Source of the DNA: Acididesulfobacillus acetoxydans
GTDB taxonomy: Bacteria > Bacillota > Desulfitobacteriia > Desulfitobacteriales > Desulfitobacteriaceae
Direction: 5' to 3'
Assembly (NCBI RefSeq): GCF_902729405.1
Contig: NZ_LR746496.1
Span: 2,046,001-2,110,000 of the forward strand
DNA: 64,000 bases
Made by a program: the position numbers and the translations under genes. Under the pieces are notes generated by a model. The model saw nothing but the letters and a program-made list of their open reading frames with translations. It did not search any database and was not told the origin of the DNA. Below, piece by piece: positions 11,803 through 59,374 of this stretch. Position 1 is the first letter of the stretch, and every line of letters starts with the position of its first letter.

Positions 11803-12085
11803 GTGAACTCGTTCAACAAAAGCTGAACATCACGATAGTGTCCTGTGGACACTATCGCCGAACCGCAAGCTTTCAAAGAATACTTGTGCGCTGAGGATGA
11901 CTTCGGTGACGATAGTCTCCGATGACGTTAGTTTCCAGTGGAGACTATCGCCGAAGCCGCACGCTGTCACAGGATGACCCGACGGCTGAGGATGACTATC
12001 GCTGCAGGCACTGGGCGTGTGAAATTATGCTTTTATGCCGAAGGCGTCATTGTCCGGTGGACAATGACGGCCGAAGGCTGAGTCT
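11803..12085. repeat. Hairpin-array intergenic element, long copy
   Basis: The first 110 bases match the element at 59118 without gaps and with nine mismatches by hand alignment. It contains 11-bp stems: 11833-11843 with 11847-11857 (loop TGT), 11910-11920 with 11940-11950, and 12045-12055 with 12059-12069 (loop GGT). Each stem starts or ends with CG and is followed by CCGAA, but the stem sequences differ. Both copies end with GCTGAGTCT. No protein is encoded. The strand cannot be assigned with certainty. Confidence 0.7.
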
Positions 12086-12106
12086 ACCCCCACCGACGCG
12101 GGGCAC

Positions 12107-12161
12107 GGGGTACCACTCCCACTTCATGGAGGTCCGGAGAAGTGGGAGTTTCACGCTTGGA
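12107..12161 (+). repeat. Palindromic element, copy 1 (IS200/IS605 end-like hairpin)
   Basis: ACTCCCACTTC at 12115-12125 pairs perfectly with GAAGTGGGAGT at 12139-12149. The flanks (ACC before, TTTCACGCTTGG after) recur around a matching hairpin at 56011-56051 on the opposite strand, so it is a dispersed repeat. A hairpin of this kind resembles the right ends and guide-RNA scaffolds of IS200/IS605 elements, but no transposase is present; that origin is a guess. The remaining bases up to 12422 show no gene. Confidence 0.5.
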
Positions 12162-12422
12162 TGAACCCACGCTTAAAACCTGAAGAAGGGTGGGTTGCTT
12201 GATTTGGAGGAGATGTCGGAGTAGAAAGAAGGAATTTGCCGGCGAATGCAGTAATTAGTAATAATACTCTAGGAACGGTGTGCAATGGGAACGGCCTGCT
12301 CTGGAAACGAAGTACCCTATAAACGTTTTGCTTAGCCGTAAGAGAAGCATTCATGATTTAACACCGTTTTTCCGCAAACAGGCTAAAGCTACTTTCAAAA
12401 TGCCAAGAAAGGACCTACGAAG

Positions 12423-13718: not shown

Positions 13719-13918
13719 GTCCGGCGTTTTTGGGATTCCGGACGAAAGGTGAGGCGGGCGGGTTTTTGCTCAGCAATGTGTCAGGGCGGCGGATACCTGA
13801 GTTAGCAGTGTGGATCTACGCCATGAGGGCAGGCTCGAATCGACGGTCGGCCGGGCGGAGGATTTGATGGGGACTAAGTCGCGTGAGGCGTCCCGAAGAA
13901 CCTGGAGAGAAGGAGTGA

Positions 13919-22089: not shown

Positions 22090-22268
22090 GCTTATTTGAC
22101 TAAAGATGAATTAGCCAATTAATTTGTTGATTTTAGCTTAAGCTGGACGAGTTTACGGATGTATTAATAGCTTAAAAAGGGACCTTCGCCGAGGATCAGG
22201 GATAAATTTTGGGCACCAATATTCCTAGGCCCAGGGGACCCATTAGTTCAAAAAGAGGGGGAGCGATA

Positions 22269-27699: not shown

Positions 27700-27775
27700 G
27701 CGCTCGTAGCTCAGTGGATAGAGTGACGGTTTCCGAGGCCGGAGGTCGCAGGTTCAAATCCTGCCGGGCGCACCA
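27700..27775 (+). tRNA. tRNA-Arg (anticodon CCG)
   Basis: A 76-base cloverleaf can be folded by hand. The acceptor stem GCGCTCG pairs with CGGGCGC, the D arm is GCTC/GAGT, the anticodon loop TTCCGAG has CCG at positions 34-36, the T arm is GCAGG/CCTGC with loop TTCAAAT, and the CCA end is encoded. The anticodon stem has one A-G mismatch at its outer pair. It reads the CGG arginine codon. Its own promoter and terminator make it a single-gene unit. Confidence 0.95.
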
Positions 27776-35436: not shown

Positions 35437-35475
35437 GGTGCTCTTAAAAGATCCAGTGGATCTTTTAAGAGCACC
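35437..35475. terminator. 18-bp perfect hairpin between glnA and glnN
   Basis: Two 18-base arms (35437-35454 and 35458-35475) pair perfectly around AGT and are followed by a T-rich stretch. It should end the glnA transcript; by sitting 70 bp before glnN it could also act as an attenuator. Confidence 0.65.
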
Positions 35476-48043: not shown

Positions 48044-48082
48044 CGAAGCGGAAAAAAGGTGATAGATTGTGCTTGACAAAAT

Positions 48083-48236
48083 TCTTCGTTAGGTGAGGCT
48101 TCTACACAGACACAGGCCGCTGCCCGGAAATGTCGAGAGACGCTAACGGGTCAACAGGTATTACCGGATTAAGGTTTTACTTAACGTGGCTGGGAACAAT
48201 CTCTAGCTGTGTACGTGCTAAAACTCAGACGAGTGG
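48083..48236 (+). ncRNA. M-box (ykoK leader) magnesium riboswitch
   Basis: The consensus blocks are all present in order: CTTCGTTAGGTGAGGCTTCT, then ACAGGCCGCTGCCCGGAAAT, GTCGAGAGACGC, GGGTCAACAGG, and near the end GTACGTGCTAAAACTCAGAC. This class binds Mg2+ and shuts off expression of Mg2+ transport genes when magnesium is high. A terminator-like hairpin follows, so control is by transcription ending. The controlled gene is the MgtE-like protein downstream. Confidence 0.9.
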
Positions 48237-48250
48237 GGAAAGGGCAAGTT

Positions 48251-55943: not shown

Positions 55944-56010
55944 GATCCGCTTTGGGTGCGATTTTTGGGGGAGTAAAGGCAGTGGATGCGCAAGTGAACC
56001 GCGGCTTCCT

Positions 56011-56051
56011 CCAATCGTGAGACTCCCGCTTCTACAAGTGGGAGTGGTTCC
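56011..56051 (-). repeat. Palindromic element, copy 2 (IS200/IS605 end-like hairpin)
   Basis: ACTCCCGCTT (56022-56031) pairs with AAGTGGGAGT (56036-56045) around CTAC. Its complement matches the element at 12107, including flanking ACC and CTCACGATTGG. It lies between the enhancer and the sigma-54 promoter and may have been inserted there. Confidence 0.5.
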
Positions 56052-56127
56052 CTGTACTCTGATTCGGCGGTGGGCGGACTCCCCCGCCGAGCCGCCAGCC
56101 AAGTCTTTTTTTGCTATTGGGCCGGAT

Positions 56128-58984: not shown

Positions 58985-59117
58985 AGGGGCCGTTAGGCCC
59001 GGGTGGAAAAGGGTAGAGGAGTGTTTGAACAGAGTATACGCGCGAGTGAAGTTTTTGTCAGGGAAAATGTGCCCAAAGGTTTAATTTGGAATGTGAACGG
59101 TTGTTTTCCCCGCTGGA

Positions 59118-59266
59118 GTGAACTCGTTCAGCTTAAGCTGAACATCACGATAGTGTCCTGTGGATACTGTCGCCGAACCGCAAGCCTTCAAACAATACCT
59201 GTGCGGTGAGGATGACTTCGGTGACGAAAGTGTCCGGTGGACACTTTTGCCGAAAGTGCTGAGTCT
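59118..59266. repeat. Hairpin-array intergenic element, short copy
   Basis: It matches the start and the end of the element at 11803-12085 but lacks the latter's middle part. An 18-bp palindrome at the left (GTTCAGCTTAAGCTGAAC) is followed by stems 59148-59158 with 59162-59172 and 59225-59235 with 59239-59249, loops TGT and GGT. Two changes in the first stem against the other copy become G-T pairs, so folding is kept. Confidence 0.7.
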
Positions 59267-59374
59267 TTAGCGAATACTATCGCGGAAGAGTCAACCGTTC
59301 TTGGAGGACTTAGAGGACGAAAAGACTTGACAAACCTTGCACAGACCATAGAATGGTAATGGAGGTGTGATGTG

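Follow-up and report, generated by a model that had tools for sequence, protein, structure and literature searches.

Insertion by IS200/IS605 transposases takes place 3' of a short target, and the elements possess subterminal hairpins (PMC5934647, PMC6006769). In the structure of IS608, target bases T-3 and T-4 are paired with A+16 and A+17, respectively, the guides lying 5' of the hairpin foot (PMC5934647). Canonical REPs carry GTAG or GTGG at the foot of the hairpin (PMC6006769). Elements of Haloquadratum termed PATEs lack terminal inverted repeats and do not duplicate their target; their near-terminal palindromes are like those of IS605-type transposons, and the small mobile repeats SMR-A insert in the palindromes of PATE/IS605 elements (PMC3119063). 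One PATE-like sequence is on record in Halanaerobium (PMC7290912). Here, we describe a family of hairpin repeats of which a literature search, covering repeats of Desulfosporosinus as well, found no description. We present evidence that it is very probably a non-autonomous, non-coding transposable family, moved as single-stranded DNA by a trans-acting Y1 (HUH) transposase of the IS200/IS605 superfamily.

The window, a stretch of 64,000 nucleotides comprising bases 2,046,001-2,110,000 of a one-contig 4.52-Mb genome (G000), contains the following parts of the family.

11803-12160, + strand: copy 1, a complete element in the orientation of the initial annotation, its limits set by the aligned ends of the family (78 left, 45 right) and by the empty sites found for other copies
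11811-11828, + strand: end hairpin GTTCAAC-AAAA-GCTGAAC, the right-end hairpin in canonical orientation; GTGAAC is near-invariant in about 160 copies
11833-11857, + strand: hairpin module A, 11-bp perfect stem, loop TGT
11858-11899, + strand: CCGAA linker with a second hairpin (CCGCAAG...CTTGTGCG) and GAGGATG junction, read from the sequence and the fold
11910-11950, + strand: nested module B, two 16-nt 5' arms and a central hairpin with loop AGT
11951-12008, + strand: 51-nt 3' repeat unit (CCGAAGCCG...GGCTGAGGAT) and a second 3' arm, GACTATCG
12045-12069, + strand: hairpin module C, 11-bp perfect stem, loop GGT
12115-12149, + strand: the other end hairpin, ACTCCCACTT...AAGTGGGAGT, the left-end hairpin in canonical orientation, overlooked by the initial annotation
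12150-12155, + strand: guide region TTCACG, in canonical orientation CGTGAA directly 5' of the left-end hairpin, g2 = G
12161-12165, + strand: target pentanucleotide ATGAA (canonical TTCAT), host DNA kept at insertion, from empty-site alignments of other copies
59118-59284, + strand: copy 2, truncated, with an intact GTGAAC end, two 11-bp hairpins and a partial further module
56010-56089, - strand: third copy, degenerate, with its canonical left end on the + strand; a remnant is shared with a congener
22126-22160 (about), - strand: remnant of a GTGAAC end (canonical AGCTTAAGCTGGACGAGTTTAC on the + strand), from a weak match at 22132-22156 and sequence reading

The canonical IS200/IS605 top strand of copy 1 is the reverse complement of 11803-12160 (+), and its cleavage sequence TTCAC appears as GTGAA at 11803-11807 (+), beside the end hairpin at 11811-11828. 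The initial annotation had described a block shared by two copies at 11803 and 59118, and this block aligns at 90% identity across 122 nt. Its 11-bp stems with 3-nt loops are also present, three in copy 1 and two in copy 2 (59148-59172 and 59225-59249), each followed by CCGAA, with one extra G first after the third hairpin; the stem of the hairpin at 11926-11950 comprises nine Watson-Crick pairs and one G-T pair. Both regions fold far more stably than shuffled sequence (z = -5.9 for copy 1, -5.8 for copy 2). The boundaries and the number of copies had to be revised. Copy 1 does not stop at 12085 and extends past the hairpin at 12115-12149 to 12160, and copy 2 lacks this right end, which is the canonical left end. 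Rather than two copies, the window holds two more degenerate pieces and the genome at least 93 non-redundant element places, nearly evenly distributed on both strands, a count obtained from searches with the body and each end and subsequent clustering of the fetched stretches. The window also contains an M-box (magnesium) riboswitch at 48078-48244 (147 bits) and a tRNA gene at 27700-27772.

The end pattern has 79 matches in the window genome, versus none for a reversed control. Carrier genomes possess about 90 to 240 copies, with 155 end-pattern matches in G006, 161 in G024, 151 in G003 and 242, the highest number, in G065. Among 74 genomes of the order, matches to the pattern come from the majority of the window's family and from a single genus of a second family, the remaining genomes having none or almost none; nine genomes of another family of the same class yielded none. 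The repeat family thus spans several bacterial genera in two families of one order.

The ends of the element are precise. In the aligned 78 left and 45 right ends, information content is at most 0.15 bit outside and about 1.7-1.9 bits inside at both ends, and the edges are sharp, one being AGTGAACTCG and the opposite one ..TTGGATRAA. Copies with both ends measure 86-364 nt. A minimal complete copy of about 117-122 nt consists of an end hairpin, an internal hairpin (CTTCGGTGGGGG-AGTCTA-CCCCCACCGAAG) and the other end hairpin, and longer copies, up to 364 nt with both ends, contain extra modules between unchanged ends. Hairpins, that is, subterminal palindromes, lie near both ends; on reading the sequence, GTGAAC.. 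and ..TTGG are not inverted repeats of each other, no copy with both ends (86-364 nt) encloses a transposase gene, and no target duplication was found in 38 intact copies.

The homology of the copy 2 locus to a congener (G001) ends at 59116, where the congener has unrelated sequence instead. Because the window thus yields little, 26 other copies were used instead: their flanks, once joined, served as queries against G001, where several of these flanks were too diverged to inform. The empty sites recovered were AATAAA (twice), CATAAA, AATGAA, CAAATAAA and one containing AATCAA, and their occupied counterparts in the window genome read A[GTGAAC...TTGG]ATAAA, ATGAA or ATCAA, the element standing in brackets. 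Three pairs of empty and occupied sites illustrate this arrangement:

..CTCTC AATAAA TGGCGG.. (empty) and ..CTCTC A[GTAAAC..TTTGG]ATAAA TGGCGG.. (occupied)
..CGGG AATAAA GGCA.. (empty) and ..CGGG A[GTGAAC..TTTGG]ATAAA GGCA.. (occupied)
..CCAG AATGAA CAAAC.. (empty) and ..CCAG A[GTGAAC..TTGG]ATGAA CAAGC.. (occupied)

Two sites are irregular: one aligned empty site has C versus A on the element side, and the AATCAA site carries extra bases. Insertion therefore takes place between A and ATRAA (or ATCAA), and the last five "conserved" bases are the target. On the other strand, insertion is directly 3' of TTTAT, TTCAT or TTGAT, a pentanucleotide that pre-exists in the empty site. Insertion 3' of a pentanucleotide, together with a hairpin near each end, is by analogy the signature of IS200/IS605 single-strand transposition. 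In our own reading the right end in canonical orientation has the same layout, with a guide CGAT 5' of the hairpin and the cleavage sequence TTCAC. In that orientation the entire element reads TTXAT^CCAA..CGYRAG-[left-end hairpin]-modules-CGAT-[right-end hairpin]-GAGTTCAC^T. Both end hairpins would serve as binding sites for the transposase, and the bases directly 5' of the left hairpin would pair with the target TTXAT and set the insertion point.

Guide and target vary together among natural copies. The foot of the left-end hairpin is CGTAAG, CGTGAG or CGCAAG (CGYRAG), such that the four bases before the hairpin in canonical orientation are TAAG, TGAG or CAAG. With A+16 and A+17 of IS608 taken as the second and third guide bases of this element, every scored copy has A as the third guide base, and T predominates at target position -4. 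At target position -3 and guide base g2, the window genome contains 21 T-A, 5 T-G, 2 C-A and 15 C-G combinations (Fisher 9.8e-6); 36 of 49 guide-target combinations matched, a number never reached in 20,000 permutations. The other genomes alone show coupling in the same direction that is not significant (n=12, p = 0.13), and pooling them with the window genome gives 29/6/3/17 (1.5e-6). Shared ancestry of the elements would not on its own produce this association, because each insertion is a separate target choice. The TTGAT group, whose pentanucleotide is also the target of ISDra2, is small (3 copies) and its pairing is less regular. The bases 5' of the hairpin foot co-vary with the target and thus probably have a role in setting it. 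Among the copies, a different guide base goes with a matching difference in target, which makes the family a natural experiment on how DNA guides the choice of target, and this coupling lends support from nature to the pairing rule derived from IS608 crystals and re-targeting experiments.

The interior of the element is a mosaic of hairpin modules. Forty-seven distinct module hairpins were picked by their central motif and the following CCGA, not by pairing at the outer eight positions; 94.4% of the cells in their stems are paired, and 8 of the 11 pairs have changed on both sides. The covariation score is 0.299, versus 0.106 for shuffled and at most 0.074 for slid alignments, and one end hairpin exhibits weaker covariation (0.245 versus 0.183). 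Variable stems on a constant frame with pairing kept, as the initial annotation proposed, are thus confirmed by module covariation. Its further suggestion that mismatches turn into G-T pairs did not extend to the family: G-T and A-C mismatches number 18 and 10 in the modules, 22 and 13 in one end hairpin and 21 and 33 in the other, with no significant excess, and wobble pairs have no strand preference.

Modules also occur nested within one another. At G000:3185327 an array of nested helices is formed by three 5' arms of 16 nt and three 3' arms spaced by 51 nt; the array at G000:1064744 has nine 5' arms of 16 nt and six 3' arms of 51 nt, the latter being tandem copies of the repeat unit found at 11951-12008. 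One nesting level is what would be expected from insertion of a module of about 67 nt into the loop of an existing hairpin: each time a module entered the loop of another, the array would gain a 5' arm of 16 nt and a 3' arm of 51 nt. The arm counts are unequal, and slippage or recombination must therefore also be at work. At G000:564144-564315 the same site holds an element in both congeners (L301 in G001) with different internal modules, and interiors are therefore exchanged or sites re-used. We think that the modules are selfish cargo, which would grow while the element is single-stranded and be tolerated in intergenic DNA.

The covariation of the interior stems may have arisen by mutation rather than selection, through template switching in palindromes that copies one arm to the other, an origin that we regard as possible though not favored and that is compatible with movement of the element as a single-strand transposon. 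The arms within one array are nearly identical (CGTTAGTC/GACTAACG throughout the array at 13739, CGATAGTC/GACTATCG at 1064744), and correction at the DNA level is compatible with the absence of a G-T excess over A-C; however, an end hairpin, which is expected to contact the transposase, covaries too, and stems remain paired in copies from several genera. We also consider, tentatively and with some doubt, that the hairpin module is itself mobile, a unit of about 67 nt (a TCC-NGT-GGA-capped hairpin and a second hairpin) that enters the apical loop of its own kind. If true, such mobility would lead to the Russian-doll arrays and to lodging in other repeats of relatives, including 5S rRNA-like sequence.

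Module-like hairpins were observed outside the element as well. At window positions 35437-35475 lies a perfect 18-bp hairpin, GGTGCTCTTAAAAGATCC-AGT-GGATCTTTTAAGAGCACC, with a module-like TCC-AGT-GGA cap outside any element, perhaps a terminator or a solitary module. A solitary hairpin, GATACAGTCC-GGT-GGACTGTATC, capped like the modules but with its own stem, lies outside any element at G000:C1:1041080 (locus L172). Locus L155 holds the 3' half of a 5S rRNA-like sequence and, after it, a decayed copy that also resembles 5S (identity judged by eye); several hairpins that share the module cap but differ in stem, one of them the CGATAGTC module, interrupt this decayed copy. In a many-species genus, the same modules are found in other repeat families with different ends, which share sequence among themselves (L141, L142, L150-L154 and L156).

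Genes for Y1 transposases are common in carriers and belong to two classes, IS200-type TnpA (NF033573) and RAYT-like (NF047646), as assigned from match range and open-frame length with three examples checked. No autonomous copy with the ends of the element was found beside any Y1 or TnpB gene examined; end searches around the fetched TnpA/RAYT and TnpB genes returned isolated neighbors only (L319, L363 and L360). The multi-copy IS200 of G065 (solo tnpA) was rejected as a parent, its TTTAAT-like left target and TTTAGT right end being unlike those of the element. Because no examined Y1 gene is flanked by the element's ends and carriers differ in Y1 class, we infer the enzyme from the mechanism; action in trans and a single-strand circle as the intermediate are also inferences.

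It is rather improbable that the mobilizing enzyme is a RAYT (TnpA_REP) and that the elements are large composite REP/BIME-like repeats instead of IS200-type minielements. RAYT-like genes are present in many carriers, they are the only Y1 genes of G024 with its roughly 160 end-pattern matches, and in G003 an element copy begins about 27 nt past the end of such a gene (L363:2468-3504). Yet no single Y1 class is found in all copy-rich genomes: G065, with 242 matches, has IS200-type genes only, neither G022 nor the window genome has an intact RAYT, and G004 and G018 possess a RAYT-like gene and lack the element. The foot CGYRAG differs from the GTAG/GTGG of canonical REPs (PMC6006769), and the two dissimilar end hairpins, together with insertion 3' of a pentanucleotide matched by the guide, resemble IS200. 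Simple REP identity was rejected on the foot motif and on the requirement for RAYT in all carriers.

The placement of the elements relative to genes is likewise consistent with a dispersed IS200/IS605-type element. Among long reading frames that enter the GTGAAC end, one phase accounts for 13 of 21 in the window genome and 19 of 23 in other genomes (pooled 32/44, p = 1e-7 versus one third). In this favored phase the insertion converts the gene's NAA TAA(A) or NAA TGA(A) to NAG TGA AC, and the protein is unchanged because the element's own stop codon replaces that of the target; at G000:915021 the protein ends ..KLENRE* in both genomes. The end sequence thus makes stop-codon insertions silent, and insertions in the other two phases, which would lengthen or disrupt proteins, are presumably purged. 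By rough gene calls based on longest open frames, 86 of 93 copies lie outside long reading frames. Flanking genes, which the initial annotation had proposed to count, are variable (51 codirectional, 17 divergent and 14 convergent pairs), and the element is parallel to both neighbors in 30 cases and opposite in 21, with no preferred sense. This lack of a fixed gene context or sense favors a dispersed mobile element over a regulatory RNA. Insertion at replication forks would be expected to leave an orientation bias; relative to replication, 54 of 93 copies are in one sense, which is not significant (p = 0.15; p = 0.08 for better-preserved copies) and at most suggestive. From G000:2315250 onward, a short tandem repeat, GGATTGAGAACGAAAAA, directly follows an element.

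A family of structured RNAs, whether cis-regulatory or small RNAs, would account for the very stable folds and the real covariation but is very unlikely, given no Rfam match at gathering score, inconsistent gene context and orientation, no wobble strand bias, interchangeable interior content, and insertion at a fixed target and at stop codons. The initial annotation had offered a structured RNA or a protein-bound DNA repeat, of which the DNA alternative pointed in the right direction; it had also recognized no known family. Many copies and stem covariation, the two observations that it named as support, were both obtained, but both point to a mobile element that uses a known mechanism, single-strand DNA transposition of IS200/IS605 type. 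Movement of this kind would explain abundant intergenic hairpin repeats of one bacterial order that can be mistaken for RNA genes, and would mean that genomes can become filled with the self-nesting hairpins of an IS200/IS605-type element (up to 242 end-pattern matches).

In their architecture the elements recall the BOX elements of Streptococcus pneumoniae, in which fixed ends likewise enclose a variable number of folding internal modules; the BOX sequence is not known to be related, and the mobilization signature of this family is of IS200/IS605 type. The hairpin modules seem to share with SMR-A the insertion into palindromes; SMR-A are longer than the modules (about 110 bp) and have terminal inverted repeats, with no self-nesting array reported in the text consulted. 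With REP, BIME and REPIN repeats and their RAYTs the elements have in common intergenic palindromes, high copy number, composite hairpins and the Y1 enzyme family, and differ in lacking a GT[AG]G foot, in their transposon-like ends and target, and in that RAYT is not found in all carriers. Like IS200/IS605 elements such as IS608 (target TTAC), they insert 3' of the target, have subterminal hairpins and keep the guide-target register, but they contain neither tnpA nor tnpB, use the pentanucleotide TTXAT and have two different end hairpins. PATEs are likewise short, non-coding and of high copy number, with near-terminal palindromes and no inverted repeats or duplication; some of them have the same ends as known IS605 transposons or originated through deletion of the core, whereas no parent was found here, and the present family is distinguished by its nested-module mosaic interior, by a guide that has diverged together with the target, and by its bacterial hosts. 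What is new is thus a modular variant of the non-autonomous IS200/IS605-type (PATE-like) elements, and not a structured RNA gene.
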